Origin: Paenibacillus sp. FSL K6-1330
GTDB taxonomy: Bacteria; Bacillota; Bacilli; Paenibacillales; Paenibacillaceae
Length of the DNA: 64,000 bases
Assembly: GCF_037976825.1 (NCBI RefSeq)
Contig: NZ_CP150269.1
Span: 7,047,501-7,111,500, forward strand
Direction: 5' to 3'
Shown piece after piece: positions 2,288 to 61,100 of the stretch; position 1 is the first letter of the stretch, and each line of letters opens with the position of its first letter. The position numbers and the translations under genes are program-made. The notes under the pieces were generated by a model. The model was not told the origin of the DNA. It worked only from the letters and a program-made list of their open reading frames with translations, and made no database searches.

Positions 2288-4588
2288 ATGAAATGGAATC
2301 ACTTCAAGTCCAAGCTTCTGCTTAAATACACACTGTCCTACATCTCCATTTTCCTGATACCTCTTGTTATATTAACCATCATTATTTATCACAATGCCGT
2401 GAATACGCTCCGTTCCGAGATCGAGCAGACCAATGTCAATCAATTGACCCAGGCCAAAACTGTCATCGATGAGCGCATGAAAGAATTGCAGGACATCGCC
2501 TTTCGCATCGCCTACGATGAGCAGCTGACCCGTTATTGGACTCACCATCCTTACTACAGCCGGGAATCCATCGGGGCCTTGGTCAAATACAAAGCCACCA
2601 GCTCCATTATTGATGAATTGTTCCTGTTCTTCCGCGGAGATAACAGCATTTATTCGTCACAGGGCTTTGAGAATCTGAATGTCTTCACCGACCGCTACAA
2701 ATTCAACAGCTGGAACGAAACGGAGATGGTCCGTGATTTAAACTCTGTCCCGATTCCGACCATGCGTCCGGCGGAGCAAGTGGTTCAGGGGACCAAAATC
2801 CAAAATTCCATGCTGGCATACCTTGTGCCGATCGCACCTAACAATACGCCCGCCCACGGCACCGTCATGTACCTGATCCATGAGTCCAATCTGACCGGAT
2901 TGATCGAATCCATCCTCAGCGACTATCATGGAATGACATATATATTCGATAATTACGGACAAGTGCTGGCCGCCAATCACCAAGGCGAAACCATTACCGA
3001 GCAGGAAGTCCACGCCCTGTTCGCACTTGAGCCTGGAACGCACAGCCTTTCCTTGAACCAAGAACCGCATTCGGTTGTATCCGTCAAATCCGATGCGGGC
3101 TGGACTTATGTCACCGCAATGCCAAGCAACCAATTTTTCAGCCGTATCGTTCATATTCGTACCTTTGTAATTCTGGTATTCTCCTTCGTCGTAGTGATGG
3201 GCACCATTCTTGCCATTATGCTGGCTCGCAGGCAATACCATCCGATTTCAGACTTGATGGAGTTCATCCGCTTGAAGAATGACCCGGAAACGTCCACATC
3301 CAGCAACGAGCTGGAATGGATCAAGAAAACGCTGCACGACTACAGCCAGCGCGTCGATCTTCAAGAGCCTTATGCACGGAATCATATTCTGCTCATGCTG
3401 CTAAAGCATGGCCATACTGGTGAATTCCCTTCCGAGTTCACCGAGAAGCTAGGCATCCGCTTCAGCCAATCCCATTATTTTGTCGTGACCATGGGCTGGG
3501 AGTCGCACGCCCTGCCCATTGGCGACAATTCGGAGCGGCGGCCCGTCATGCAGTTAATGAACGATGTGGAGCTGCCGGCGTTTTCCGCCTATGCCTATGG
3601 AGTGGAGCTGCCACAGCCCGATCAGTTGGCCCTCATTGTAGGATTTGATGCCGAAACCGGACATGATGCGAGCCTTAACGCCCGTATGGAGCCGATCGCC
3701 CTGGCCCTGCAATCGATGGCGGGAGAGCACACGGGTGTCTCTCCTGCGATCGGGGTAGGCAACCGCTACAGCTATCCGGAGCAGCTGAATCAATCCTTCA
3801 TTGAAGCATCAACCGCTTTGGAGGCTTCCATGCTGCACGGACAGGGCAGCAGCACCTTCTTTAACGCTCTTTCCGGTTCCGGCGCACAGGATTCATCCTT
3901 CTGGGTCCCTAAGGATGTGCTGCTGAAGCTGGTTCAAAGCTTGAAACAGGGCAGTTATGATGTAGCGGTTCAGATGGTATCCACCGCATTGAATAACCTG
4001 AAGACGGAAATGCCGTCCGTACCGCTGCTGCGCTGTATCTGCTTCGATATTCTGAATACGATGCTGAAGACCGCGTCCGAGCTTGGCATCCATCATGTGG
4101 TCAATCAGCTTCCACGGGTCACCTCTTATGACTCGCTGGAGGATTTGGAGAAGAAGCTGGCAGGCCTTGCCGCGGAAATCTGCGCCCATGTCGAGGCGAA
4201 GAGCGAGACCGAAGAGAGCTCCCTGATGGACGAAATCGTTGCCTTTATCGATGCCAATTTTACGGACTATGACCTCAGCCTGGGCACGATCTCGTCTAAA
4301 TTCTCCATCTCTTCATCATATTTCAGCCGCTCCTTCAAGGAGAAGATCGGGATGAACTTTACCCAATACATCTGGCAGAAACGAATGGATGAGGTGATCC
4401 GGCTGCTGCTGCACACAACCGATCCATTAAAGGATATCATCACCCGGGTCGGTTACCTGGACACGCCGAACTTCATCCGCAAATTCAAGAAAGAGACGGG
4501 GTACACGCCCGGTCAATACCGCAAAATGCACAGCAGCAACGGCGCTGCTGATTCGCCGGATGAGGATGACGAAGAGTACACCGGATAA
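2288..4588 (+). CDS. Membrane-anchored AraC-family transcriptional regulator
   Basis: A 766-residue regulator. It has an N-terminal membrane helix (about 13-33), an extracytoplasmic sensor region (about 34-287), a second membrane helix (about 288-312), a cytoplasmic linker, and a C-terminal AraC DNA-binding domain with two helix-turn-helix motifs (about 645-750, ending in the FIRKFKKETGYTPGQYR signature). Paenibacillus uses many such one-component receptors to control neighbouring sugar operons. It converges on the minus-strand glycan operon ending at 4737 and is the nearest regulator to it. A GGGAGGT site precedes ATG 2288. A perfect cre site lies upstream. Ligand unknown; the link to the adjacent operon is inferred from position. 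Confidence 0.85.
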   Translation: MKWNHFKSKLLLKYTLSYISIFLIPLVILTIIIYHNAVNTLRSEIEQTNVNQLTQAKTVIDERMKELQDIAFRIAYDEQLTRYWTHHPYYSRESIGALVKYKATSSIIDELFLFFRGDNSIYSSQGFENLNVFTDRYKFNSWNETEMVRDLNSVPIPTMRPAEQVVQGTKIQNSMLAYLVPIAPNNTPAHGTVMYLIHESNLTGLIESILSDYHGMTYIFDNYGQVLAANHQGETITEQEVHALFALEPGTHSLSLNQEPHSVVSVKSDAGWTYVTAMPSNQFFSRIVHIRTFVILVFSFVVVMGTILAIMLARRQYHPISDLMEFIRLKNDPETSTSSNELEWIKKTLHDYSQRVDLQEPYARNHILLMLLKHGHTGEFPSEFTEKLGIRFSQSHYFVVTMGWESHALPIGDNSERRPVMQLMNDVELPAFSAYAYGVELPQPDQLALIVGFDAETGHDASLNARMEPIALALQSMAGEHTGVSPAIGVGNRYSYPEQLNQSFIEASTALEASMLHGQGSSTFFNALSGSGAQDSSFWVPKDVLLKLVQSLKQGSYDVAVQMVSTALNNLKTEMPSVPLLRCICFDILNTMLKTASELGIHHVVNQLPRVTSYDSLEDLEKKLAGLAAEICAHVEAKSETEESSLMDEIVAFIDANFTDYDLSLGTISSKFSISSSYFSRSFKEKIGMNFTQYIWQKRMDEVIRLLLHTTDPLKDIITRVGYLDTPNFIRKFKKETGYTPGQYRKMHSSNGAADSPDEDDEEYTG

Positions 4589-4646
4589 CGAATTCGGATG
4601 ATGGCGAAGAATAGTGAGTCGGTACCAGTTTTGCCGCAAAAATAGA

Positions 4647-4680
4647 AACCTCCCCTGAACCGTACCGTTCAGGGGAGGTT
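4647..4680. terminator. Bidirectional terminator
   Basis: AACCTCCCCTGAAC (4647-4660) and GTTCAGGGGAGGTT (4667-4680) form a perfect 14-bp stem with a 6-base loop between convergent genes. Confidence 0.8.
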
Positions 4681-4736
4681 TTCGTATGTTTTAAACTCAT
4701 CCGAGTTATCAGATCCACCGCGACCGCCAGCTGTTC

Positions 4737-5783
4737 CTATTTCCCGGCCGAGATGCTTTGAAGTCCTTGATGCATAGCGCCCAGCAGGCGATGGGTCGGG
4801 TCGCATCCATATTCCCAGAACATGATCCCGGCCAAGCCTTGTTCTTTCACATAATTGCATTTGCACTGAATCGATTCCTCATCGTCATAAGAAATCAAGC
4901 TGGAGCCGTTAAAAAGGTACGGCGCACAGGCTTCCTCGTCCCAATAACGAATGTAGCCGTTCTTGTTGATGTACTCCGCAGCCAGCTCGGCAAAGGCCGG
5001 ACCATAGCCGCCTGTGCTGCCAGCCATTTGGTGAAGGCCATGGTTTCGATCCGGCACCTCGTTCCATACACGGGAGTAAAATGCGGCACCGATGACTATC
5101 TTCTCCTTCGGGACGCCGGCGCGAACGAACAGGTTCACGGAAGCATCCGTGCTGATTCGGAACAGATCTCCGGTTGACGTGTACAGATTCGTATGATGTC
5201 CGGTCAGGACCTGAAACCCGCCTCGCATATCATAGGTCATCAACTGGACAAAATCCAGGTACTGCTGTACCTCGGCCATCTCCGTGCCGTCTACATAGTA
5301 TTGGTCAGCCCCTGCCGCAATCGTGAGCAGGTAATGCCGGCCATCCCGGGAGCCCTTAGCATCCAGCGCCTCCCGGATCGTCTTCAGCAGCAGGGTGAAA
5401 TTCCGTTTATCATCCGGACTCGACCCTATGTCGGCTTCACCGTAACATGGATACTCCCAGTCCAGATCGATACCGTCAAAAGGATATTCCTCCAGCACCC
5501 GTATGGCGGATGCGGCCATGCGGTCCCTTCCGCCCTCGGTTGAAGCGGCTTCGGAAAAACCACCAGCGCTCCAGCCGCCAACAGACAGAAGTACCGTAAG
5601 AGTCGGGTGATCCCGCTTGATGTTCCGGACCACCTCGCCATTCTTCAAATGCTCGGTGGTGATCTCATCGTTCTTGACATGACCGAAGGCTACGTTCAGA
5701 TGCGTTAATTTCAGCAGATCCTCATGCGTCATGTCGGGAAGAACCGAATCGACGGCGTAACCCGCCACAATATACTTCGTCAT
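4737..5783 (-). CDS. GH18 family glycoside hydrolase (chitinase/endo-GlcNAc-ase type), cytosolic
   Basis: A 348-residue single-domain GH18 enzyme with the SVGGW motif (residues 67-71) and the catalytic DxxDxDxE motif (D103, D106, D108, E110; E110 is the acid/base). GH18 enzymes cut beta-1,4 bonds next to N-acetylglucosamine by substrate-assisted catalysis. No signal peptide, chitin-binding or SLH domain is present, so it should act inside the cell on imported oligosaccharides. It is the last gene of the minus-strand glycan operon, 21 bases after the transglutaminase-fold gene. A close paralogue (same length, same motifs) lies at 16370-17404. Whether the substrate is a chito-oligosaccharide or the GlcNAc2 core of an N-glycan cannot be told from sequence. 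Confidence 0.88.
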   Translation of the reverse strand: MTKYIVAGYAVDSVLPDMTHEDLLKLTHLNVAFGHVKNDEITTEHLKNGEVVRNIKRDHPTLTVLLSVGGWSAGGFSEAASTEGGRDRMAASAIRVLEEYPFDGIDLDWEYPCYGEADIGSSPDDKRNFTLLLKTIREALDAKGSRDGRHYLLTIAAGADQYYVDGTEMAEVQQYLDFVQLMTYDMRGGFQVLTGHHTNLYTSTGDLFRISTDASVNLFVRAGVPKEKIVIGAAFYSRVWNEVPDRNHGLHQMAGSTGGYGPAFAELAAEYINKNGYIRYWDEEACAPYLFNGSSLISYDDEESIQCKCNYVKEQGLAGIMFWEYGCDPTHRLLGAMHQGLQSISAGK

Positions 5784-5804
5784 TACTCTTCACTCCGATC
5801 CCTT

Positions 5805-8423
5805 CTAGGGTTGTAATATCGCGGTTGCAATCTGCAGGGCTTCCTTCCCGGTGCCGATCTTGTATCCAGAAGCCGCATAACGGATTTGATCCTGACGATC
5901 CAGGACGAACAGATGAGGATAACCGGCTTCATGGGCTGCAGGATTCGAGATGAAACCCGATAAGGAAGCATAACTGGAATCCCGTACAAAAATAGTGCGG
6001 GCCGGCAGCTTCGGATAGCTTGCCGTATCAAAGGAAGCTGTCCATTCCGCATCCCCGATCACCAGCACAATCGGCAAGTCCAGCTTATCCAGCGGCTCGG
6101 CCAGCTCGCTGAGCTCGCGGAGCAGATGCTTGGTCGGCTCCCGCTCCGGTTCGATCCAGGCAGCGATAGCGCCCTCGGTTCCCAGAAGATCCTTAAGATC
6201 CGCTCCCGTTCCGTCTAATCGGGTAAGCGTACTGCCCGGCGCCAGTTTGCCCAGCACCGGAATGTCGACCGCCGTCTCACGATAGGTTAGCGCCACGCGC
6301 GTGGTGTCTCCGGCACGAACGGTAAAGTACGTGAAGCGCACTCTTACCGTTCCGTCCTTCAGCCGGATGCCCGACGTTAGACGGTACGAACCCGGCTCAA
6401 CCTCATACGGCTCGTCGTAAACATCGGTGCTGCCATAAGGATACACCAGCGTTTTGTACACGCCGTCTTCCAGGCGGGCGAAGGTAAAGTTCTCGGCATA
6501 GGATGCGGCCGGCGTATCCTGCGAGCCTTTCGGATCTCTGAGGAACTGCAGCATCCCCCAGCCTGAGCTCTCCTGATTCCGGGGGGAGTCCAGACGGAAG
6601 GCTGCATCTTCCCAACTTCCATCACGTAAGTACTGCGGCTTCTGCTCGCTCGGATGCAGTCGGGCGGGAATCCCCAGACTGCGGCATACAGCCACAAACA
6701 GAATGTCCAGCGACTGCTCGTCTCCCTTCATGAGACTGTACGTGCCTGCCGGATTTCCCTTACCCTTCAGGTTGGGAAGGTCCTCAGCATAGGCATAGCC
6801 CTGCTCCAAATGCCCGGCAAGCGTAGAAGGATCCTTCCTGAATGCCGCAGTCTCCTCCGCCGTAAAGGCATCAACGATTACACGGCGATACGGGACCAGC
6901 ATTTCATAAGAAACCCGCGGACACAGGATGTACTTCACGAAGGTATCCTCATCCCACTGTCCACGCTGTGAGAGGGCACCCATCAGATGATCATCCAGCG
7001 TTTGCCGGAAGGTATCAATCAAATCCTTTTCGTTCAGCGATTCCAGCAGCCGCAGCGGCCACTCGCCGTAATCGCCGGAATGCTCCTTCAGGAACGCTGC
7101 GATTTCCTTGCTGTTGCCTCTGGCTTTTCGAAGGACGTCCCACACCCGCTCCGGAGGCAGTCCTAATGACTGGGCCAGTGCAGTTGCCTCTTCTTCGCTC
7201 AGGAATGTACCCTCATATTCGGTCCGGACCTTCGTCCCTTCCTCCAGACGGTGGTTATGAGCCTGGGTCTTCTCCTCGGATAACGCCGTCGCGGCGTCCC
7301 CTTCTCCTTCCGGTGGAGGAACCATATCGAAATCCACGATCCCTGACGGCTGTTCGGATGAATCAAGCACAAGTTCGATATGTCCGCCGTCCTCGGCCTT
7401 GAACAGGATTTCACTCCACTTGCCGCCGCTGACCGCACGAACCAAGAGGTCGCCATAACCGGTCTTAAAGGAAGCCTTCCCTTGCTCATCGGTCTTGATT
7501 TCGGCAATCGGATAAAATTCAGCCATATTATACAGCTCAAATCGAATGCTTGCGCCGGATACAGCCTCTCCCTGCTTATCCTTCACGCTCACGTAAAGGG
7601 TGCGAGCCGGTGCATAGTTCTCCAGCAAATTAATCTCCGTAAACCCCTTTTCGCATAGGGTAATATCCTCCGGACCGGGGTAATCGGCAAAAATTCGCGT
7701 ATTGATCAGCATCGCCCTGCGTGCCGGCGGACTGAACCAGCCTTGATTCAAGCGGGCTTCCGGTTCGCATGCCCCGATGTAATACCACTGGCCGTCTGCC
7801 CATGCTTCCACCCAGGCATGGTTGCTGTCGCAATGAGCCCAGCGCGGCGTATAGACCTGACGCGCGGGGATGCCGATGCTACGAAGCGCGGCCACCGCCA
7901 GCGTGGACTCCTCGCCACAGCGTCCGCGTGCGTTCCGGATCATCGTCAGCGGCGAAATGGTTCGCAGATCGCTGCCGATGTAGGTCGCCTTCTCATGGCA
8001 CCAATAATTGGTTTCCAGAATGGCATCCGCCATCGATAACTTCGCCGTCCGTTCGGCCAATTCGTTGTAGAGAATACCGCGGTAATCCTCAATATTCTCC
8101 GTATTAACCCGGTAAGGAAGCACAAAATGCAGGAACAGATGATCCGGCACGCGCTCGCCCCAAGGCACGCGCTTACGGATGTCCAGGGCTTGGCGCACAT
8201 GATTCAAGAACAATTCTCCATCATAGTCGGCCATGTCGTTCACCGGCATGTAAGCAAACAAATATTTCAGGGCCCAAATCTCTTCATCGGTCAGTTCCTG
8301 CTCAAAAACATGAAACAGCTTATCTTTGCGCGCTTCCGCAAAAATGATCTTCTCCTGAAACTTTTGCTCGATCCGCTCCCGTGTCTGCGAATCCAGCGAG
8401 AACACCGCGGTTTGGCTGGTCAT
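5805..8423 (-). CDS. Large transglutaminase-fold protein with duplicated, partly inactive domain
   Basis: About 872 residues from the ATG at 8423; an ATG at 8444 is possible, but the GGAGGGAG ribosome site lies inside that extension. A helical region is followed by a transglutaminase-like domain with GRCGEES (Cys about 169), NHAWVEAW (His about 202) and W-YYIGACEPE. This resembles the Cys-His-Asp core of eukaryotic peptide:N-glycanase (RCGE, DHVWTEV, HCDACE), except that Gly replaces the usual Asp. Next come an Ig-like domain (about 275-355) and a second copy of the helical plus transglutaminase-like unit (about 460-620) in which KGDEQS replaces the Cys motif. The C-terminus is thioredoxin-like without CxxC. 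No signal peptide. It sits in an operon with fucosidases and a GH18 enzyme. The family function is not established to my knowledge. Confidence 0.8.
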   Translation of the reverse strand: MTSQTAVFSLDSQTRERIEQKFQEKIIFAEARKDKLFHVFEQELTDEEIWALKYLFAYMPVNDMADYDGELFLNHVRQALDIRKRVPWGERVPDHLFLHFVLPYRVNTENIEDYRGILYNELAERTAKLSMADAILETNYWCHEKATYIGSDLRTISPLTMIRNARGRCGEESTLAVAALRSIGIPARQVYTPRWAHCDSNHAWVEAWADGQWYYIGACEPEARLNQGWFSPPARRAMLINTRIFADYPGPEDITLCEKGFTEINLLENYAPARTLYVSVKDKQGEAVSGASIRFELYNMAEFYPIAEIKTDEQGKASFKTGYGDLLVRAVSGGKWSEILFKAEDGGHIELVLDSSEQPSGIVDFDMVPPPEGEGDAATALSEEKTQAHNHRLEEGTKVRTEYEGTFLSEEEATALAQSLGLPPERVWDVLRKARGNSKEIAAFLKEHSGDYGEWPLRLLESLNEKDLIDTFRQTLDDHLMGALSQRGQWDEDTFVKYILCPRVSYEMLVPYRRVIVDAFTAEETAAFRKDPSTLAGHLEQGYAYAEDLPNLKGKGNPAGTYSLMKGDEQSLDILFVAVCRSLGIPARLHPSEQKPQYLRDGSWEDAAFRLDSPRNQESSGWGMLQFLRDPKGSQDTPAASYAENFTFARLEDGVYKTLVYPYGSTDVYDEPYEVEPGSYRLTSGIRLKDGTVRVRFTYFTVRAGDTTRVALTYRETAVDIPVLGKLAPGSTLTRLDGTGADLKDLLGTEGAIAAWIEPEREPTKHLLRELSELAEPLDKLDLPIVLVIGDAEWTASFDTASYPKLPARTIFVRDSSYASLSGFISNPAAHEAGYPHLFVLDRQDQIRYAASGYKIGTGKEALQIATAILQP

Positions 8424-8431
8424 CCTAGCGT

Positions 8432-9454
8432 TCACTCCCTCCATAGCTTTCCGTCTTCCCGAATGCAGATTAGAGCCGTTCCGTCTGATGAAGGCGCGCT
8501 AATCTGGAACAGGCTGCGAGTCGTTTCAATCACAGGCTGGATGCTCCATGCATCCTCGCCCATGAGCTGCTTCGTGTCCTGCGTAAATTCACCATGGGCT
8601 TCATAGTAATTACGCTGCCGGTAATAGAGTCTGCGCAGCTCCCATTTGATCCGTTCGTCTTCCGGAAGCGTAAACGGCTGTTGCTCCTCGCCACCCGCGA
8701 ACACAACGTAACCCCACAGCTCCGGGTAATGCATATTGATGATGCCCATAGGCGACCATACCCAATTGTCCTCCGGAAAAGGCTTGCCTGTCTCCGGATT
8801 CAACACCTTACGGTACTCGCCGTCTTGCACTTCGGTCTGCCATTCCACGCGCGAGAAGTTGACGCGCCAGAACTCACCTGGCGCAGGGCGGCGGCCACCT
8901 TCGGCACATTCCTTGAGACTGGTCCAAGGAATCGCCACCTCCACGCTCCATTTCCGGTTGTCCGCGCCAGGACGGTTCAGCTCCCCATCGATAAATACCG
9001 CCGTCTTAAGACCGCTGATATCCCAGCCGTTGACCGGAGGTCCGCCATCCCGGTACGGTTTCACGAGCAGCAAGTCCCACACCGTGTTCAAGGCATTAAT
9101 TTCGAATTCATAATATTGATGGCTGTCTCCGTCCGGATCAATGAATATTTCAAAGTCATTATCATAGAAAATAACCGAATCGCGTTCAGTCAATGTCGCC
9201 CATATCTGATCCTCGATCAGCTCGGCGGCAAAATAAAAATAATCGTCGTCCCACAGCATTTTGACCCGGGTCCGTTTCCCCGGCTTCGGACGAAGATCCC
9301 CTTCGATATCAACGAAATCGTCGGTCCACTCCGCCGCATCCCAGAATGCCTTATCCACGCGGCCATCCAGCACGAGCGGCTGCCCCGCACGCTTGCATAA
9401 ATAATGCTTAGGAGCATACTCAATCCTCGGCTCCGGCACTCCACTTCTGTTCAT
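8432..9454 (-). CDS. CBM9-like carbohydrate-binding protein
   Basis: A 340-residue protein resembling the CBM9 (DOMON-related) family. The usual opening LVLDGRVDKAFWDAAEWTDD (about 27-46) leads into a beta-rich domain with acidic and aromatic residues (WDDDYFYFAAEL, YEFEINALNTVWDL, WSVEVAIPW). A C-terminal extension follows (about 245-340). No signal peptide and no catalytic module are visible, so a cytoplasmic sugar-binding role is odd but consistent with its intracellular neighbours. Its stop overlaps the ribosome site of the transglutaminase-fold gene, and it follows the GH29 gene by 63 bases, so it belongs to the operon. Function beyond glycan binding is unknown. Confidence 0.75.
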   Translation of the reverse strand: MNRSGVPEPRIEYAPKHYLCKRAGQPLVLDGRVDKAFWDAAEWTDDFVDIEGDLRPKPGKRTRVKMLWDDDYFYFAAELIEDQIWATLTERDSVIFYDNDFEIFIDPDGDSHQYYEFEINALNTVWDLLLVKPYRDGGPPVNGWDISGLKTAVFIDGELNRPGADNRKWSVEVAIPWTSLKECAEGGRRPAPGEFWRVNFSRVEWQTEVQDGEYRKVLNPETGKPFPEDNWVWSPMGIINMHYPELWGYVVFAGGEEQQPFTLPEDERIKWELRRLYYRQRNYYEAHGEFTQDTKQLMGEDAWSIQPVIETTRSLFQISAPSSDGTALICIREDGKLWRE

Positions 9455-9517
9455 GTCATTCTCTCCGCTTCATGAGGGAGGCTAAGCACTTATCTAGCGC
9501 GTCCCTCCCCGTGATGG

Positions 9518-10804
9518 TTAGTTATGCGTGACAACAGCTCCCGAGCCGCCGTACATCTCCAGCTCCTCGTCAAACTCCAGCTTAAGAACCGTCACCTGCT
9601 CATGCGCGTCTTCAGGAGTCATCTTGATCCACGTCGTCCCCGGGATGTTGAACCAAGGCACGCCCCCATGAATCTCGTGGGTAAGCTCCTTGCCCGAATG
9701 CAGCACGGTAATCTTCTTGATCGGGTTGCACAGCCCCTTAATGCACACATTCTCTTTCGGAGCGTCATAGACAAACAGGTACAGTGTCTTTCTGTCCTCG
9801 GAAATCGTGCTTCCCCCCAGATAATAGCGGGTCATAATGCCTTCACCCGTTCCGAATACAGCCTCTTCATGGGTCCGGATCCATGCTCCCAGCCCAAGCA
9901 GGATGTCCTCTTGCCTTTGATCGATGGTGCCGTCTTCGCGCGGACCGATATCCAGCAGCATATTGCCGCCCATCGAGATGCAGTCGCAGAACATCCGAAT
10001 GATCTGGTTCAAGGATTTGTATTTATGATCGGTCGGGACGTAGCCCCATGAGCTGTTGATCGTTGTGCAGAATTCCCAAGGTCCCTCCGGTCTCGTGATC
10101 GGAATGCCCTGCTCCGGCGTTTTATAATCACCGTGGCCCTGCAGCCGTGAATTGATGATGATATCCGGATTGAAGGATTGCAGGTAATGCTTGAACTCTG
10201 GCAGATTCCACTGCTCGGCACTTCGCTCCCAATCGCCATCGAACCACAGCAGATCCACTTTCCCGTAATTCGTCAGGATCTCCCGCAGCTGGTTGTTATT
10301 AAACTCCAGAAATTTCTGCCATTTCTCCTCATCCTGAACACCGTCCACGGGACTGGTGTGCGGGTTGACGCTGCTGAGATCCTCCGGCACCTTGCCTCCT
10401 TCGAACACGCTCGGATAATCCGGATGCGACCAATCAATCAGAGAGAAGTACATGCCCAGGTGAATCCCCTTCTCCCTGATCGCTTCAGCATACTCCCGCA
10501 CGATGTCTCGATTGGCTGGTGTCCGCTTGACCACGTTGAGATCGCTGTACTGCGTATCCCACAGCGCAACACCATCATGGTGCTTCGTTGTCAGCACGGC
10601 ATACCGGGCACCGGATTTCTCGATCAAATCCGCCCATTTCTCCGCATTGAATTTCGATGCCGTAAAACCGTCCATCTGTTTCATGTACTCGTCGTAAGTG
10701 ATCCTCCCATTGTAGAAGGACCAGGATTCCGAGACTCCGTCCACGGCATAAATGCCATAGTGAATGAAGATGCCCAGCTTGGCTTCTTCGAACCATTTCT
10801 GCAT
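9518..10804 (-). CDS. GH29 alpha-L-fucosidase (first downstream copy)
   Basis: 428 residues from the ATG at 10804, which has GAGGTG 9 bases upstream; longer in-frame starts extend toward 10858 but lack a site. It shows the GH29 barrel with FIHYGIYA, TKHHDG (about 74-78) and VDLLWFDGDW, whose Asp (about 189) is the expected nucleophile. GH29 enzymes release alpha-L-fucose with retention. No signal peptide, so it should act on imported fucosylated oligosaccharides. It follows a second, only distantly similar GH29 gene, which suggests that two fucose linkages are handled. The C-terminal beta domain looks complete. Confidence 0.88.
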   Translation of the reverse strand: MQKWFEEAKLGIFIHYGIYAVDGVSESWSFYNGRITYDEYMKQMDGFTASKFNAEKWADLIEKSGARYAVLTTKHHDGVALWDTQYSDLNVVKRTPANRDIVREYAEAIREKGIHLGMYFSLIDWSHPDYPSVFEGGKVPEDLSSVNPHTSPVDGVQDEEKWQKFLEFNNNQLREILTNYGKVDLLWFDGDWERSAEQWNLPEFKHYLQSFNPDIIINSRLQGHGDYKTPEQGIPITRPEGPWEFCTTINSSWGYVPTDHKYKSLNQIIRMFCDCISMGGNMLLDIGPREDGTIDQRQEDILLGLGAWIRTHEEAVFGTGEGIMTRYYLGGSTISEDRKTLYLFVYDAPKENVCIKGLCNPIKKITVLHSGKELTHEIHGGVPWFNIPGTTWIKMTPEDAHEQVTVLKLEFDEELEMYGGSGAVVTHN

Positions 10805-10866
10805 ATCTGTCCACACCTCTTCTTGAAGTCGTTGTAAGTGAAAAATACGTTTATACAACCCGCCTC

Positions 10867-12252
10867 TTAACGAAACCGCAACACATGTGCAATCGGGGCC
10901 GGTCCCTGACGTTCCTGATCCGGAAGACGGACCGCAACGCCATCGTCCGTGCGGCGGTAATCGAGCGCCTCCTGACCCCCGACGAGATCAATGCGGCTGA
11001 ACGCCGTCTGAATCGGAATGTGCAGCTCTTCAGGAACAGCATCTTGTTCATTTCGATACAGATAGATGGCATAGGTCGTATCGTCTTTTTGGGTAAACTG
11101 GACGGCCCCGGAGGAATACGACTCGCAGATACGCGTGCCATAGATCGCCTCTCCATAGACTTTCAACCATGCCCCCATGCCCTTCATTCGTGAAATAGCC
11201 GTCTCGGGCAGCCTACCGTCCGGCTGCGGACCCACATTGAGCGCTAGATTTCCGCCTTTGGCCACGATCTCGACCAGCAGATGAATGAGCTGACGCACCG
11301 TTTTATAACGATCCTCGTAGCGGAAAGAGAAGGAAGTTCCCATCGTGATACAGCTCTCCCAAGGCACATGCAGAGCACGCTCAGGGAGGGTCTGCTCCGG
11401 CGTAATCAGATTCTCGTAAGGCCCGCCGACCGTGCGGTCCGCCGAGAGGAGCCAAGGCTGAATCTCACGCGCTTTCTCTACCACTTCACCCAGGCGGATA
11501 TTCTGATCACGATAATCGTTCACCCAGCCTGCATCCAGCCACAGTACATCAATGCGGCCGTAACGGGTCATCAGCTCCATGATCTGCTCATGGGTAAACT
11601 GGACAAACTGTTCCCACAGCCACGGGTATTTCTTCGGGTCATAGCTAGGACCGCGTGACGTAAAGCTTCCCGCCTCCATTCCCGGCGCCCAGTAGTATGG
11701 CGTATGCCAATCGGCCTTCGAGAAATAGGCGGAAATGCCGAGCCCTTTGGCACGAAATGCCTCGAACAGCTCCTTCGTGATATCGGCGTGTTTATGCATA
11801 TGGAACGGACAGTCTGGACCCGTTACACGGTAGTCGGTCGTATGCGTGTCCCACATGCAGAACCCGTCATGATGCTTGGTTGTAAAGTTCAAATATTTGA
11901 AGCCGTTATCGGCTGCCAGGTCAGCCCACAGATCAGGCTGAAAGCGAAGCGGGTTGAAGGTCTTGTTCAGATCAAAATACTGCCGCTTAAGCTCCTCCGC
12001 ATCGATATCCCAGTCAATGCCGTCACGTGACCAATCCGCGTCTTTATCGCTCAGTGCCCATGATTCAACAAGACCCAACTGGGAATACGGTCCCCAATGC
12101 ATCATCAGGCCCAGCTTCTGGTCCTTGAACCATTCCAGACGCTCCAAGAGCAGCGGATCCTCCGGCTTGACCCATTTGTCCTCACTGCTGAAATTGTGCA
12201 CGCCCTGCTCCACTACTGCTTGCTCTTCCTCTACCAGCTTGTTCTCCGACAT
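10867..12252 (-). CDS. GH29 alpha-L-fucosidase (upstream copy)
   Basis: A 461-residue GH29 enzyme: MMHWGPYSQLG near residue 50, TKHHDG (125-130), and IDVLWLDAGW with the probable nucleophile D240. No signal peptide. GGAGGT sits 6 bases before the ATG. It is the first gene after the terminator-like hairpin that follows the binding-protein gene, and is followed by the second GH29 gene across about 60 bases. The two GH29 proteins share only the family core motifs, so they are not a recent duplication and probably differ in linkage specificity. The fucose products are not catabolised by any gene visible here. Confidence 0.88.
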   Translation of the reverse strand: MSENKLVEEEQAVVEQGVHNFSSEDKWVKPEDPLLLERLEWFKDQKLGLMMHWGPYSQLGLVESWALSDKDADWSRDGIDWDIDAEELKRQYFDLNKTFNPLRFQPDLWADLAADNGFKYLNFTTKHHDGFCMWDTHTTDYRVTGPDCPFHMHKHADITKELFEAFRAKGLGISAYFSKADWHTPYYWAPGMEAGSFTSRGPSYDPKKYPWLWEQFVQFTHEQIMELMTRYGRIDVLWLDAGWVNDYRDQNIRLGEVVEKAREIQPWLLSADRTVGGPYENLITPEQTLPERALHVPWESCITMGTSFSFRYEDRYKTVRQLIHLLVEIVAKGGNLALNVGPQPDGRLPETAISRMKGMGAWLKVYGEAIYGTRICESYSSGAVQFTQKDDTTYAIYLYRNEQDAVPEELHIPIQTAFSRIDLVGGQEALDYRRTDDGVAVRLPDQERQGPAPIAHVLRFR

Positions 12253-12322
12253 GGTGTACCTCCAATAGTCATTGTTGATAACGATAGGTTTGAAGACCGC
12301 AAGGAACAGGCTTGCCTGCCCC

Positions 12323-12372
12323 TAAAAACAATAGCCAACCCCCGGTCATGAATCGACCGGGATACGTTGGCT
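12323..12372 (-). terminator. Terminator or attenuating hairpin between binding protein and fucosidases
   Basis: AGCCAAC (12333-12339) pairs with GTTGGCT (12366-12372), with an inner GGTC/GACC stem. Read on the minus strand it is followed by TTTTT (12323-12330). It could reduce transcription of the enzyme genes relative to the binding protein, as is common in sugar operons. Confidence 0.6.
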
Positions 12373-12397
12373 CTTTGTTTTTCATCTATGCATCTGA

Positions 12398-14008
12398 TTA
12401 TTGCTCGGCGTTCCAGCGATCATATGCGCCTTGGTAAAGCTCGACGAGACGGTCGCTGCCCATTTTCTTAACTTGTGCAACGTATTTATCCCAATTTTCA
12501 AGCGGCTCTTGGCCTGTTACGAATTTCGCTTCCATCTGTTTCACATACGTTTCCAAATCGGACAACAGCGAAGTTGCCTCGCTCTGCTCTTCATTCGTCA
12601 AATAGACGTTAGGGAATGGCGACTTTCCGATCGGCACCAGCTTCTCTTGATTCTGTTGATCGATCCACTCATCAAATTCAGTGCGAAGGCCTTTGGCAAC
12701 TTCCGGATCATTGACGCCAGGTGTCAAAACACCGTAGTTCGGCGTGATTTTGCCGCGATACTCCTCACGATCTCCACCGCCTGGCACCGGGAGCCATTCT
12801 TTCACGCGGTTTGCCTCATCCTTGAATTTCCACAACGTGCCTTCAGGCCCTTGGTTAAACAACGTGGCGCCTTCATAGCTGTACAGGTAATCGATCCAGC
12901 GCATGGTAGCTTCCGGAGACGGGTTGCTGCTCGAAATGGCGAATGTACCTCTTGCCGACATACCAGGGTGCATGCCGTATACAGGAGAGTCCGCAATTTC
13001 ACTCTTCACCGGCGTCATGAGCGGATGCTCGCTGCTAGGCTCGCCGCCGAGCGTGAAGTACGCATGGTAGTCATTAAACAGAGCTAGCTGATTGTTTTCT
13101 CCCTTGGCTTTTTTCTGATCGCCTGTTTGCGAGAAGGTTTCATGATCCAGCAGTTCTTCCTTCCACAGACGGTTCATGAACGTCAGGTAGCCTTTGTAGC
13201 CTTCTTCCTGGTAAGGATAGTGCACTTTTCCGTCCTTGTCGGAATAGATGCCTTCGTTGTACATGCCCCAGAAGCCGAAGAAGTACATACGCAGGTCATC
13301 CAGCTTGACCGAAGTCAACGGAATCTCGTCTTTCTTTCCATTTCCGTTAGGATCTTCTTCCTTAACGCGTTTCAAGAATGTATATAGTTCCTCTGTTGTC
13401 TTAGGTTCGGACACGTTTAGCGCTTTTAGGAACTTGCCGTTGTACCACATCGGGCCTCTGTACCATACGGCAGCCTTGTCGACGAACGGCAGGGCATAGA
13501 TATGTCCGTCCGGGGTCGTGAAGGATTTGCGGACATCCGGGTTCTCGTCAAAAATCTTTTTGATGTTCGGTGCATAGCCTTCGTCAATGTACTTCTCCAG
13601 CGGAATGAGGATTCCTTGGGTACCATAGGTCACCTGCTCAGCCGGCTTCAGGTCGGCAGCGTAAAACATATCGGGCAAATCACCGCTGGCGAACACCAGA
13701 TTCTTTTTCGTTTCAAAGCTGTCAATCGGAGAAAGCTGATATTCCAGCTTGATGCCTGACAATTTCTCCATCTCTTGTAGTACGGGCATCGTATTCCAAT
13801 CGGCTACACCGGCATCCTGTGACATGACCGTCAGCGTGATCGGCTCATCCACAATCGGGAAACCTTCCTTTTTTACCCCTTCCGTACTGGCCGTCCCGGA
13901 CGGTGCCGTAGCAGCGCCGTCTCCTTTGGGTGAACCACAGGCTGCAAGCATTGTTGCTGAGAGGGTGAGGCAGAGTAAAATAGATGATGCCTTACGAAGC
14001 TTTTTCAT
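12398..14008 (-). CDS. LplA-type sugar ABC transporter binding lipoprotein
   Basis: A 536-residue extracellular solute-binding protein. It begins with a lipoprotein signal peptide (lipobox LAAC, Cys24) followed by a Ser/Gly/Ala-rich linker and a type-1 oligosaccharide-binding fold (PITLTVMSQDAG near residue 57; the family's large size suggests oligosaccharide ligands). The GGGGAG site and spacing are good. It lies downstream of its two permeases on the minus strand. No ATPase is present; such systems usually share MsmX-type ATPases encoded elsewhere. The ligand is inferred from the neighbouring fucosidases and GH18 enzymes to be a fucosylated, GlcNAc-containing oligosaccharide. Confidence 0.9.
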   Translation of the reverse strand: MKKLRKASSILLCLTLSATMLAACGSPKGDGAATAPSGTASTEGVKKEGFPIVDEPITLTVMSQDAGVADWNTMPVLQEMEKLSGIKLEYQLSPIDSFETKKNLVFASGDLPDMFYAADLKPAEQVTYGTQGILIPLEKYIDEGYAPNIKKIFDENPDVRKSFTTPDGHIYALPFVDKAAVWYRGPMWYNGKFLKALNVSEPKTTEELYTFLKRVKEEDPNGNGKKDEIPLTSVKLDDLRMYFFGFWGMYNEGIYSDKDGKVHYPYQEEGYKGYLTFMNRLWKEELLDHETFSQTGDQKKAKGENNQLALFNDYHAYFTLGGEPSSEHPLMTPVKSEIADSPVYGMHPGMSARGTFAISSSNPSPEATMRWIDYLYSYEGATLFNQGPEGTLWKFKDEANRVKEWLPVPGGGDREEYRGKITPNYGVLTPGVNDPEVAKGLRTEFDEWIDQQNQEKLVPIGKSPFPNVYLTNEEQSEATSLLSDLETYVKQMEAKFVTGQEPLENWDKYVAQVKKMGSDRLVELYQGAYDRWNAEQ

Positions 14009-14051
14009 GACAACAACTCCCCTTTTTTTGGTGTGGATTTATGGTATAAGA

Positions 14052-14960
14052 TCAGCCCTTAACGGAACCAATCATAACACCCTGCACAAAGTAACGTTGA
14101 AGGAACGGGTAAACCGCAATAACCGGAAGTGTCGCAACGATAATGACCGCATATTTGACCAGTGCAGCAATTTCCGCTTTGGAATTCATCGCTGCTGCGG
14201 ATGAGGCGTCAATCGCCCCGCCGCCCTGTGCCGCCATCTCCTGAAGGACCAGGATTTGACGCAGGAAGAGCTGAAGCGGGTACTTCGCGGCATCATTCAG
14301 ATAAATCATGGCACTGAAATAACTGTTCCAATGTCCGACGCCGTAGAAAAGTGCCATGACGGCAATAATCGGCATCGAGAGCGGCAGTACGATTTTGATG
14401 AATAACCGGAAGTTCGTACAGCCGTCGATATGGGCAGCTTCCTGAAGCTCCTTCGGAATGGTCGATTGGAAGAACGTCCGGGACACAATAATATTCCATA
14501 TGGACGCAGCTCCCGGCAGAATTAGGGCCCACATGCTGTTGACCATGCCAAGATCCTTAACGAGCAGGTAACTCGGAATCAGTCCCCCGCCGAAAAACAT
14601 CGTAACCAGAAACACCGCCATAAAAAATCCTCTGCCCACAAAATCAGAACGGCTGAGCGCATAGGCTGCAGGCAGCGTGACAATCAGATTCACAATCGTA
14701 CCGATCACTGTATAAATAATCGTGTTCTTGTAGCCAATCCAAATGTTGGCGTTCTCAAACACTCGGGCATATCCATCAAAAGTTATCCCTTTCGGAATCA
14801 ACCACATTTCACCTGAGCTTACGTACTTCGGATCACTGATGGAGGCGCTGACAATGTACAGCAGCGGGTACAGTACGATGACAAGCGCAATCGTCAGATA
14901 GATGTAGTTGCATAGCAGGAATAATTTATCCCCTTTGCTTTCCCTTACCGTGGATGACAT
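14052..14960 (-). CDS. Sugar ABC transporter permease, LplC/YtcP type
   Basis: A 302-residue inner-membrane permease with six predicted helices and the cytoplasmic EAA loop (EAAHIDGCTNFRLFIKIVLP, about residues 185-204) that docks the ATPase. The C-terminus ends in the FVQGVMIGSVKG signature of the YtcP/LplC branch. It is 15 bases downstream of the first permease and 43 bases upstream of the binding protein. A GGGGGA ribosome site precedes ATG 14960. Confidence 0.93.
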   Translation of the reverse strand: MSSTVRESKGDKLFLLCNYIYLTIALVIVLYPLLYIVSASISDPKYVSSGEMWLIPKGITFDGYARVFENANIWIGYKNTIIYTVIGTIVNLIVTLPAAYALSRSDFVGRGFFMAVFLVTMFFGGGLIPSYLLVKDLGMVNSMWALILPGAASIWNIIVSRTFFQSTIPKELQEAAHIDGCTNFRLFIKIVLPLSMPIIAVMALFYGVGHWNSYFSAMIYLNDAAKYPLQLFLRQILVLQEMAAQGGGAIDASSAAAMNSKAEIAALVKYAVIIVATLPVIAVYPFLQRYFVQGVMIGSVKG

Positions 14961-14975
14961 ATGTTATTCCCCCTT

Positions 14976-15947
14976 CTACCACAGGCTGTTTTCGCTGGTG
15001 CGACGAGCGATTTGGTTCACCGCAATCAGCAGAATCGCATTAATGACCGAATTGAACAATCCGACGGCGGTAGAGAAGCTGTACTGTGCGTCAACCAGAC
15101 CGGAACGATAAACAAAAGTCGAGATGACATCGGAAGAGCTCATATTCAGCGGGTTCTGCAGCAGCAGGATTTTCTCGAATCCGACGCCCAAAATGCTGCC
15201 CATGTTCAGGATCAACAGGATGGTAATCGTAGGTATAATAGCCGGGATGTTGATGTGCAGAATCCGTTTGAAACGGCTTGCTCCGTCCACGACAGCTGCT
15301 TCATGCAGCTGAGGATCGACACCCGATAAGGCTGCGAGATATATAATGGTACCCCAGCCTGCACTCTGCCAGACGCCAGACAGCACATACACCGTCTTGA
15401 ACCATGCAGGGTCCGTCAGGAATTGAGGCGCCTGAAAGCCAAGCATTTCCACAAAGTTAACAATCATGCCGGACGAAGGCGACAAGAAGGTGATGATCAT
15501 ACCGGACATGACAACGACCGAAATAAAATGCGGTGCATACGTGACGGTCTGTACGGTACGCTTGAAGAATGAATCCTTCACTTCATTGAAGGCCAATGCC
15601 AGAATAATGGGCAGCGGAAACCCGATGGCCAGCTCATACAAGCTGATGCTGAGCGTATTCCAGAGCAAGTCCCAGAAGTAATAAGAGTTAAAGAAGCGTT
15701 CGAAGTGGTCGAATCCGACCCACGGGCTTCCCGTTATTCCCAACGTCGGGATGAAGTTTTTGAAGGCGATTTGGATCCCGTACATCGGGCCATAATGGAA
15801 AATGACAAAATACAGAAATGCCGGAGCTATAAACAAATACAGCTCCCAGTTTCGAATCATCCTCCTCCATAATGTATTTTTCTTACGATTCGGTATCGTG
15901 TTAACCGATAAGCTTTGCGACAGGGCGGATTGACCATCTTGCTGCAT
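14976..15947 (-). CDS. Sugar ABC transporter permease, LplB/YteP type
   Basis: A 323-residue permease with a charged N-terminal tail, six membrane helices, and the EAA loop EAAVVDGASRFKRILHINIP (about 216-235). LplB-type signatures include MYGIQIAFKNF and YRSGL near the end. It is the first gene of the glycan operon, read leftward, with an AGGAGGGGG site before the ATG. A perfect cre site lies 126 bases upstream, in the region shared with the divergent GH18 gene. Confidence 0.93.
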   Translation of the reverse strand: MQQDGQSALSQSLSVNTIPNRKKNTLWRRMIRNWELYLFIAPAFLYFVIFHYGPMYGIQIAFKNFIPTLGITGSPWVGFDHFERFFNSYYFWDLLWNTLSISLYELAIGFPLPIILALAFNEVKDSFFKRTVQTVTYAPHFISVVVMSGMIITFLSPSSGMIVNFVEMLGFQAPQFLTDPAWFKTVYVLSGVWQSAGWGTIIYLAALSGVDPQLHEAAVVDGASRFKRILHINIPAIIPTITILLILNMGSILGVGFEKILLLQNPLNMSSSDVISTFVYRSGLVDAQYSFSTAVGLFNSVINAILLIAVNQIARRTSENSLW

Positions 15948-16369
15948 AGGTTGCCCCCTCCTTTTCTAATGAAAATCCGGCCATTTTTTTCGGAAAAGCA
16001 CCCCTGTTTAATGTAAAAGAAAGAGCCTTCCTGACCACTCCTTAGCGTGCGGCTTTTCGCCCGCTTCAGAAATGTTAACGCTTACACACCAAGTGTATGG
16101 ACCGCGGCACTATCCGTAAATATGTCATTTTCAATGGTCTAATGAAAACGGCTTCATGCATTGGTATGACGGGCTTTTTACGTCCTTTCCACTCTTGTCA
16201 TTGTCGTTTTCGGGTAGGAAAACATGTGGTTTTTGACCCTTCCCCCCTGGTAAATTGTCATCCAGGTCAATGGGATGATCCTTGACAGATGTCATATCTG
16301 ACCGTAAGTTGGAAAAATAAACCGTAAAAGCAAAACTGACATATCCTAAAAAGAAATGAGGTATTACGC
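15948..16369. other. Divergent regulatory region between glycan operon and GH18 paralogue
   Basis: About 420 bases without a gene. It carries a perfect cre site (16073-16086) and several A+T-rich stretches that could hold divergent promoters. I could not assign -35/-10 pairs with confidence, and saw no repeated operator for the AraC regulator. Confidence 0.6.
16073..16086. promoter_or_regulatory. cre site (CcpA operator), perfect consensus match
   Basis: TGTTAACGCTTACA fits TGWNANCGNTNWCA at all fixed positions. It lies between the divergent permease (start 15947) and GH18 gene (start 16370), so one CcpA dimer could repress both sides. Confidence 0.7.
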
Positions 16370-17404
16370 ATGTTGCCATCCTCCTGGATTTTAGCCGGCT
16401 ACGCAGGGCGCAAGGTCTTATCCACGATCACGACCGAAGATGCCCAGCGGCTCACTCACTTGAATATCGCTTTCGCCCATATCCAAGAAGACAAGATTTC
16501 GTATACCGATACGAACACCATCCACGAGATCCAACGCCTGAAAACCGTCAATCCCCAGTTAACCGTTCTGCTGTCCGTTGGCGGTTGGGGCTCCGACGGA
16601 TTCTCGGAAGCTGCAGCCACGCCCGAAGGAAGACAAAGCGTGTGCGAATCGGCGATCAAGCTGCTGCAAGAGTTTCCATTCGACGGCATTGACCTGGACT
16701 GGGAGTATCCATGCTACTCGATAGCCGGAACGGTGGCATCGCCAAGTGACAAGGAGAACTTCACACTGCTCCTGAAGGAGCTCCGGGAAACACTGGATCA
16801 GTACGGGCGGGGCAAGAAGCACTATCTGCTCACGATCGCGGCCGGAGCCGATCAATATTATATCGATGGCACCGAGATCCATAACATCCACCCCTATCTC
16901 GACTTCATTCAGCTGATGACGTACGACATGCGCGGCGGATTCCAGACGATGACGGGCCATCACACCAACCTGTACACCTCCACCGGCGATCTGTTTCGAA
17001 TCAGTGTCGATGCTTCCGTCCGCCTGTTCACCCTAGCCGGTGTGCCGCGCGAAAAAATCGTGATCGGCGCCGCATTCTACTCCAGGAAGTGGAAGGATGT
17101 GCCGGATGTCAACAACGGTTACCTCCAGGTAGCTCCATCTTCTGGTGGTTACGGTCCGACCTATACCCAGCTCGCAGCCGAGTATTTTAACAATCCTTCA
17201 TATAAGCGGTACTGGGACGATGAAGCCAAAGCGCCCTTTTTATTCGATGGCAGCAGCTTCATCACTTACGATGATGCCGAATCCCTGACCCATAAATGCA
17301 AATATATACAAGATCAAGGCTTGGCTGGTATTATGTTCTGGGAATACAGCTGTGATGCGACACACAGCCTGCTGGATGCAATGTACAAAGCATTCCACTC
17401 CTAA
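16370..17404 (+). CDS. GH18 family glycoside hydrolase, paralogue of the operon copy
   Basis: A 344-residue GH18 enzyme with SVGGW (69-73) and the catalytic motif D105, D108, D110, E112. It is closely similar along its whole length to the protein at 4737-5783 (shared PFDGIDLDWEYPCY, IAAGADQYY-DGTE, LMTYDMRGGFQ, GHHTNLYTSTGDLFRIS). Like it, there is no signal peptide or accessory domain. It is transcribed away from the glycan operon and shares its cre-containing control region. The two copies therefore bracket the operon, which could give different dosage or specificity. An AGGT site lies before the ATG. Confidence 0.88.
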   Translation: MLPSSWILAGYAGRKVLSTITTEDAQRLTHLNIAFAHIQEDKISYTDTNTIHEIQRLKTVNPQLTVLLSVGGWGSDGFSEAAATPEGRQSVCESAIKLLQEFPFDGIDLDWEYPCYSIAGTVASPSDKENFTLLLKELRETLDQYGRGKKHYLLTIAAGADQYYIDGTEIHNIHPYLDFIQLMTYDMRGGFQTMTGHHTNLYTSTGDLFRISVDASVRLFTLAGVPREKIVIGAAFYSRKWKDVPDVNNGYLQVAPSSGGYGPTYTQLAAEYFNNPSYKRYWDDEAKAPFLFDGSSFITYDDAESLTHKCKYIQDQGLAGIMFWEYSCDATHSLLDAMYKAFHS

Positions 17405-17476: not shown

Positions 17477-17509
17477 GGACTCTTTCCTTATCGTGAAGGA
17501 GTCCTTTTT
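17477..17509 (+). terminator. Rho-independent terminator after GH18 gene
   Basis: GGACTC (17477-17482) pairs with GAGTCC (17499-17504), followed by TTTTT. Confidence 0.7.
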
Positions 17510-27161: not shown

Positions 27162-27234
27162 CTTGGATATACACTCCTTTTGGAATTCATAAGATAAAGC
27201 CTCGACACTTCCCATTCTACGTTCTATGATAGGA

Positions 27235-27248
27235 TGAAAACGATAACA
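27235..27248. promoter_or_regulatory. cre site (CcpA operator), perfect consensus match
   Basis: TGAAAACGATAACA fits TGWNANCGNTNWCA at all fixed positions. It lies in the 137-base region between the divergent GH127 gene (start 27161) and AraC regulator (start 27299). Confidence 0.65.
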
Positions 27249-27298
27249 TAATCGACCTAATTTCTTATACAATTTCACACTTCCCTGGAGGTGTTACC

Positions 27299-57593: not shown

Positions 57594-57684
57594 TGTAAAC
57601 TCCCCCTTTTTGTACAAGGTCAACGTTTCTCCCCAGCATCTCACTGTTTTCAACGCCTGCTTCCTTAAGCTCGAACATGCAGAC

Positions 57685-57703
57685 GCCGGCCACAAGGACC
57701 GGC
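57685..57703 (-). other. Hairpin between xylanase and aguA genes
   Basis: GCCGGCC and GACCGGC form a short G+C-rich stem in the 190-base gap. Without a T run it is more likely an mRNA processing or stabilising structure than a terminator. Confidence 0.35.
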
Positions 57704-57784
57704 ATCATGACAAACTGATGGCGTCTTCAGCCGCCTGTATTATCGCTATTGTTATATAAAATGATAGCTTAAGCCCCAGTATCC

Positions 57785-58801: not shown

Positions 58802-58964
58802 ATCCAGTCCCTCCTTAAATTATAGATAATAGCAAGATTGATGGTTATGATCGTGATGCCACAGGCATCGGTTGGTCGACAGCCATCCATTCATGCCCCG
58901 GACCACGCACCGTGCGCACAGGGAGTAGTTCGCACGATGTACTTAAATTAGCGGCTCCCGGAGC

Positions 58965-59900: not shown

Positions 59901-59952
59901 ATGAATCCTCCTGTACGTTTTCTGATAGAGAACGGTCCTCGCAAGCTTTCGC

Positions 59953-60993: not shown

Positions 60994-61100
60994 GGTTTCT
61001 TCTCCTTCCTATCCAGCCTATCAATTATGCTGTTATAGAAGAGGAGGGACGGATACAACCATTTTGTGTGGTCCGCCCCTGATCACCTCTCCTTCATCTA

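Follow-up and report, generated by a model that had tools for sequence, protein, structure and literature searches.

A Paenibacillus operon encoding a transglutaminase-fold protein, with a putative role in the use of core-fucosylated N-glycan remnants

Described systems and the Paenibacillus operon

Intracellular use of N-glycan parts is already known in bacteria. The alf-2 operon of L. casei serves the use of Fuc-alpha-1,6-GlcNAc-Asn, with the gene for the aspartate 4-decarboxylase AsdA clustered with that for the amidase (PMC6960285), and S. pneumoniae imports N-glycan fragments through NgtS-P1-P2 (PMC5215778). A review of bacterial N-glycan breakdown lists three releasing families, GH18, GH85, and PNGase, and makes no mention of a transglutaminase in the text available (PMC10154615). 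Here, we describe an operon of Paenibacillus sp. FSL K6-1330 (7.43-Mb genome, one contig) that lies in a window of 64,000 nucleotides, the whole stretch of DNA analyzed (NZ_CP150269.1, positions 7,047,501 to 7,111,500; coordinates below are those of the window). It combines an importer, fucosidases, and a GH18 enzyme with an 879-amino-acid transglutaminase-fold protein, hereafter TG (5805 to 8444, minus strand). From its genes and their neighbors in relatives, the operon is probably a cytosolic catabolic system for core-fucosylated N-glycan remnants still on asparagine or a short peptide, in which TG is a tentative candidate for a GlcNAc-Asn amidase. Statements about cited papers refer to the available parts of their texts.

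The operon is a chain of eight codirectional minus-strand genes (15947 to 4737; intergenic gaps, -13 to 145 nt) that encode two permeases, a binding lipoprotein, two GH29 proteins, a CBM9 protein, TG, and GH18a. Pfam, applied to ten proteins of the locus, found all of them at the places and in the families given by a first-pass annotation made from the sequence alone. By its composition, the importer is putatively of the AlgQ/LplA type, with a lipoprotein substrate-binding protein (SBP), two permeases, and an ATPase outside the operon; no ABC ATPase occurs among the ten proteins scanned. Permeases A (14976 to 15947) and B (14052 to 14960) match BPD_transp_1. The AlgQ-like SBP (12398 to 14008) matches SBP_bac_1 (55 bits) and has a lipobox-like LAAC; its nearest relatives among the 14 solved sequences it matched are AlgQ2/AlgQ1 and 5G5Y, which we take to be alginate-binding (AlgQ2) and streptococcal FusA (5G5Y).

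The two alpha-L-fucosidases are GH29b (10867 to 12252; 281 bits) and GH29a (9518 to 10804; 322 bits); the latter was called from a TTG at 10858 but probably starts at the ATG at 10804, behind the ribosome-binding-site-like GAAGAGGTG. The CBM9-like protein (8432 to 9454; CBM9_1, 44 bits) overlaps TG by 13 nt. GH18a (4737 to 5783; 246 bits), predicted to be cytosolic, has an intact DGIDLDWE motif and closely matches 6INX over its full length (595 bits), a protein labeled a GH18 "N-acetylglucosaminidase"; it is also related to chitinases, and from its homology to these and to 6INX it may act on chitin oligomers. A second enzyme, GH18b (16370 to 17404, plus strand; 262 bits), is divergent from the operon and 63% identical to GH18a. 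A simple hydropathy heuristic (not SignalP) detects no signal sequence in any enzyme of the locus, in agreement with the first-pass annotation, and the enzymes look cytosolic.

The operon resembles alf-2 in the logic of an intracellular GH29 joined to a GlcNAc-Asn amidase, a putative one here, and the enzyme class of AsdA also follows TG in one related locus, L116. It differs from alf-2 in transport (an ABC importer here, the MFS permease AlfH there), in the amidase, which there is the glycosylasparaginase AsnA2, of a family (PF01112) absent from the FSL K6-1330 genome, and in composition, the alf-2 cluster being described, in the text available, without a GH18, CBM9, or TG gene (PMC6960285). 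The S. pneumoniae system likewise has an ABC importer of N-glycan fragments, together with the mannosidase SpGH92 and the endoglycosidase EndoD. Because EndoD frees Man3GlcNAc before uptake, import there presumably leaves the Asn stub outside; a transglutaminase goes unmentioned in the available text (PMC5215778), and the 14 solved sequences that our SBP matched do not include the NgtS structures 5SUO, 5SWA, and 5SWB. In the plant N-glycan pathway of Bacteroides massiliensis, a core-fucose GH29 again accompanies N-glycan release, but the PNGase there belongs to group 2 and resembles EMTypeII, and the word "transglutaminase" is absent from the text available (PMC9522356). The strain of that study, DSM 17679, is also the source of a related locus (L165; Phocaeicola massiliensis DSM 17679) in which TG, CutC, and GH29 genes stand side by side, and the GH29 of L165 may be the one studied there. 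In open-licence PMC literature, searched mostly at the level of titles and abstracts, we found no bacterial TG-fold N-glycan enzyme and no Paenibacillus N-glycan locus. The first-pass annotation had known of no described locus with this gene set; in that literature we likewise saw neither the set nor the TG step, with the qualification that alf-2 is functionally similar and uses other genes.

The transglutaminase-fold protein and its likeness to PNGases

TG matches Transglut_core in two stretches (87 bits). Its domain order is TG1, which contains Cys176 and His209, a second TG domain, an Ig-like domain, a helical domain, and a C-terminal Trx-like domain. Beyond anything in the first-pass annotation, TG1 has the PNGase-like motifs GRCGE and CE. 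A sequence search with TG1 alone returned yeast PNGase as the top match (E = 0.0035), with Cys191 and His218 aligned to C176 and H209, and a profile search placed PNGases second to fourth, behind 3ISR; the E values to PNGases are weak. Both motifs are absent from three other bacterial TG proteins, those of nine controls whose motif region was readable. Residues C176, H209, E213, E227, and W236 are invariant across 87 TG proteins from two phyla, which argues for catalysis.

The catalytic triad of NGLY1/Png1 is Cys-His-Asp (PMC2791212). Relative to Png1/NGLY1 (1X3W, 3ESW, and 2F4M), TG shares the fold, the GRCGE and CE motifs, and the aligned Cys and His; it differs in its other attached domains, in the place of its gene in a bacterial catabolic operon, and in having Gly at the position of the catalytic Asp (Asp235) in 87 of 87 proteins. 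Because of this substitution we rejected TG as a member of the NGLY1/Png1 PNGases, although the fold and the GRCGE and xCE motifs, which appear from the aligned PNGases to define that family, are present. A Foldseek search with the TG1 model gave no match at an E value of 0.001, with 3ISR ranked first. When the whole TG model was compared, matches to the Trx-like domain filled the results, and no PNGase was among the 50 matches listed in each of two comparisons. The isolated TG1 model is weakly confident in the active-site loops, and we therefore claim no active-site geometry. The C-terminal Trx/AhpC-like domain spans residues 728 to 879 (window 5808 to 6263); a redox role for it is unlikely, since a Cys-x-x-Cys motif was not seen there in the window protein.

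The TG family is large, with 7,990 of 7,999 scored candidates matching at an E value of 0.001 (the best 120 were looked at), and its members are named only "transglutaminase domain-containing protein" at the source. With somewhat less assurance than for the GlcNAc-Asn step itself, TG might be taken to found a new bacterial class of glyco-asparagine/N-glycopeptide amidases with a Cys-His TG fold lacking the Asp, on an intracellular route analogous to that of eukaryotic NGLY1 with an endoglycosidase and an alpha-mannosidase; members from Bacillota would be cytosolic, with CBM9 as their partner, and those from Bacteroidota would be exported, often as lipoproteins. If true, this would give a function to the family, provide new enzymes for the removal of core fucose and N-glycan stubs, and explain how Paenibacillus and its relatives, lacking a glycosylasparaginase, might make use of the stub that remains on asparagine in glycoproteins.

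Conservation, neighboring genes, and rival explanations

We read 100 related loci (20 plus the 80 that ranked best among 567 confirmed places, the ranking favoring the first alignment sequence), 63 from Bacillota and 37 from Bacteroidota; 58 and 31 of these, respectively, have enough flank (at least 3 kb upstream and at least 2 kb downstream). Among the 58, the pairs L075/L107 and L081/L131 each share an identical TG piece. Neighbors were counted by tblastn, with cutoffs of at most 500 bp on the same strand for CBM9, at most 8 kb for GH18 and GH29, and at least 40% identity within 10 kb for the SBP. In the Bacillota loci, CBM9 lies beside TG in 54 of 58, with GH18 (47), the SBP (42), and GH29 (36) also nearby; none of the four is near TG in 3 of 58. 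These numbers replace earlier open reading frame-based counts of 49, 42, and 34 for CBM9, GH18, and GH29, in which long opposite-strand frames had concealed real genes. The gene set, on whose conservation the first-pass annotation had staked its proposal, is thus conserved across these loci as a CBM9-TG-GH18 core; the fucosidases it had included are common yet optional. The same transporter is kept with CBM9-TG where GH18 or GH29 is not nearby (L112, L114, and L116).

Record titles of related loci include Paenibacillus, Cohnella, Gordonibacillus, Saccharibacillus, Lederbergia, and Firmicutes metagenome-assembled genomes (MAGs). TG relatives occur in 19 of 60 genomes, FSL K6-1330 included; the raw count was 21, from which G024 and G029 were left out as short matches (E, ~5e-4). 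The match is in pieces in G023 and G027, and G030 has one in-frame TGA. In L105, titled Bacillus subtilis strain DE0224, the start of the CBM9-TG pair resembles that of Lederbergia galactosidilytica (L121), and the organism label may be wrong. In a Clostridiaceae MAG (L091:8404-9804), a GlcNAc 2-epimerase-family gene, below NCBIfam cutoffs, directly precedes TG.

GH125 acts on N-glycan mannose, and 13 of 58 Bacillota loci have GH125, GH38, or GH130 at most 10 kb from TG (GH125 in 8, GH130 in 2, and GH38, with an identity threshold of 35%, in 6). Two of the loci, L086 and L089, were entered by hand for a distant GH38 (~20% identity) that Pfam confirms in L089 and not in L086. GH125-GH42like-(GH38) precede TG in L070, L097, and L100; GH130-GH125-GH38-GH38 follow GH18a in L077; GH125 sits between GH29a and CBM9 in L118, L120, and L122; and the MAG locus L089 is one codirectional run of permeases-GH130-GH18-GH38-GH29-CBM9-TG. 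The cytosolic mannosidases GH38 and GH125, which with an importer are expected of an intracellular N-glycan utilization locus, are found beside TG in some relatives and, in FSL K6-1330, only at other loci. One of these is L180 (G000:C1:2414001-2434000), where GH3-GH38-GH125-GH42like-GH38 have their own importer; GH125 is 84%, and GH42like and GH38 are 63%, identical to those of L070. The GH42like product of L180 is a 1,068-amino-acid GH42/GH5-like TIM-barrel protein with no NCBIfam match; it may cleave Man-beta-GlcNAc, as its relatives stand in L070, L097, and L100 where L077 has GH130. A GH38 takes off the last alpha-1,6-mannose of the N-glycan core, and Man-beta-1,4-GlcNAc is broken by GH2, GH5_18, and GH130 (PMC10154615). 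Across the 60 genomes, GH125 is present in 19/19 TG-bearing and 17/41 TG-less genomes (Fisher P = 7e-6, shared ancestry not corrected) and, in the genus alone, in 16/16 versus 12/21 (P = 0.005). The corresponding figures for GH36 as a control are 19/19 versus 32/41 (P = 0.05) and 16/16 versus 20/21 (P = 1).

Genes for asparagine and peptide use adjoin TG in a few of the 100 loci, no kind in more than two. An aspartate 4-decarboxylase gene directly follows TG in L116, from Paenibacillus aquistagni (TIGR03801, 770 bits; cutoff, 435), an L-asparaginase II gene and a leucyl-aminopeptidase-family gene lie between the transporter and CBM9-TG in L112 and L114, and an M60 peptidase gene precedes TG in L090. 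Glycosylasparaginase (PF01112) was found in 0/60 genomes, FSL K6-1330 included, in a search whose control detects 5 of 14 known genomes; being absent from TG-less genomes too, it is by its absence alone no proof of replacement.

In the pathway that we propose, small N-glycopeptides or glyco-asparagine would enter through the lipoprotein and the two permeases, energized by an ATPase from another locus. The two GH29 enzymes would take off core fucose, possibly one alpha-1,3 and the other alpha-1,6, and GH18a and GH18b would split the GlcNAc-GlcNAc core. Assisted by the CBM9 protein, TG would hydrolyze the GlcNAc-Asn amide via Cys176 and His209, the role of glycosylasparaginase or PNGase elsewhere. 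GH38 and GH125 would remove mannose, and GH130 or the uncharacterized TIM-barrel enzyme would break the Man-GlcNAc link; the genes for these steps lie elsewhere in FSL K6-1330 and beside TG in some relatives. The AraC protein and CcpA would control the operon.

Several observations weigh against this proposal. At the tblastn cutoffs, the Bacillota partners are absent from the 31 Bacteroidota loci; one of these, L140, has GH125-CutC-TG, with GH130 and GH94 nearby. Most Bacteroidota loci thus lend the N-glycan assignment no support. GH29 is found in 0/31 at 35% identity, with L165 (33%) and L151 (42%; dropped for a short flank) uncounted. The NCBIfam top model for the L070 GH38 is mannosylglycerate hydrolase, and those for the GH130 proteins are beta-mannobiose phosphorylases, all below cutoff; "Man-GlcNAc phosphorylase" is accordingly a putative assignment for the GH130 proteins. 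As for TG itself, it has no Asp at the canonical position, its second TG domain is without the Cys (as read from the alignment), and 3ISR, the nearest profile match, is annotated as a putative cysteine protease. These last three points, and the peptidase genes beside TG in L090, L112, and L114, would suit a locus for N-glycopeptides in which TG is a peptidase or a nonhydrolytic binding or scaffold protein and GlcNAc-Asn is cut by another enzyme or left uncut. That explanation, which overlaps with ours except at the TG step, we judge rather unlikely, given the invariance of Cys176, His209, and their surroundings in 87 proteins of two phyla and the absence of the GRCGE and CE motifs from the readable control proteins.

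As an alternative substrate, fucosylated chito-oligosaccharides, such as fungal or nodulation-type signals, might be taken up, lose their fucose to GH29, and then be cleaved by GH18, with TG acting on an amide substituent or something unrelated; both enzyme families suit fucosylated GlcNAc oligomers, and GH18a is nearest to 6INX and chitinases. This would leave unexplained the GH125, GH38, and GH130 genes beside TG, the asparagine and peptide enzymes, and the greater constancy of CBM9-TG than of GH29 (54 versus 36 of 58), and we regard it as improbable. Still less probable, in our estimate, is that the genes act not on the N-glycan core but on another fucosylated or sulfated glycan of a host, of the mucin O-glycan or LacdiNAc type. 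GH123 occurs in 2/58 and sulfatase relatives in 5/58 Bacillota loci, both adjoining the CBM9-TG cluster in L079 (Pfam) and L104, and the M60 peptidase of L090 and a GH95 fucosidase gene that precedes TG in L136 fit as well; yet GH125, GH38, and GH130 point to mannose-bearing N-glycans, and GH123 with a sulfatase would also fit sulfated LacdiNAc antennae of N-glycans. Since the locus in relatives also contains GH125, GH38, and GH130 genes and, in single cases, genes for amino acid or peptide use, a fucosylated N-glycan or glycopeptide is the best substrate class and, we think, reasonably likely to be the true one. The first-pass annotation had listed fucosylated chito-oligosaccharides beside these candidates; they are now less likely.

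CutC adjoins TG in 10 of 37 Bacteroidota loci (L125, L126, L130, L140, L141, L142, L146, L161, L163, and L165). We considered it as an N-glycan marker and rejected it: where CutC lies away from TG, in genomes of three Bacteroidota and in a Firmicutes MAG, inspection of protein starts by eye showed no N-glycan genes around it, so that CutC beside TG says little. The CutC locus of that MAG has sugar-transport-like genes.

Regulatory elements and flanking genes

The divergent promoter region between the operon and GH18b contains TGTAAGCGTTAACA (16073 to 16086, minus strand), which agrees with one cre consensus at every position and bears out the cre site that the first-pass annotation had placed there. 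This 14-mer has one exact occurrence in the 64 kb and one place with two mismatches; the consensus match leads us to propose that CcpA acts at it. A second cre-like near-palindrome lies at 16143 to 16156, with one mismatch on either strand. At the far end, as also foreseen, is a membrane-bound AraC-family regulator (2288 to 4588, plus strand; HTH_18, GGDEF-like, weak dCache) with a hydrophobic N terminus. It converges with the operon on a strong, bidirectional terminator-like hairpin with a stem of 15 to 16 pairs (4645 to 4682, both strands), the common 3' end of the AraC gene and the operon, next to GH18a. Many related loci (uncounted) also have an AraC relative close to the operon, either in this position or, in others, between the SBP and CBM9 genes. 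A hairpin search found another terminator-like hairpin 3' of GH18b (17477 to 17504, plus strand), and an Rfam scan gave no match.

A TatC gene lies upstream of the AraC gene (492 to 1277), and some relatives have a gene for a PhoX-type phosphatase in the vicinity (L068 by Pfam, L099 by BLAST), which suggests a separate Tat-PhoX cluster beside the locus. Other sugar genes in the window, at 25191 to 27278 and 55494 to 62786, encode a GH127 beta-L-arabinofuranosidase and GH67 and GH10 enzymes with an importer permease and a binding protein.

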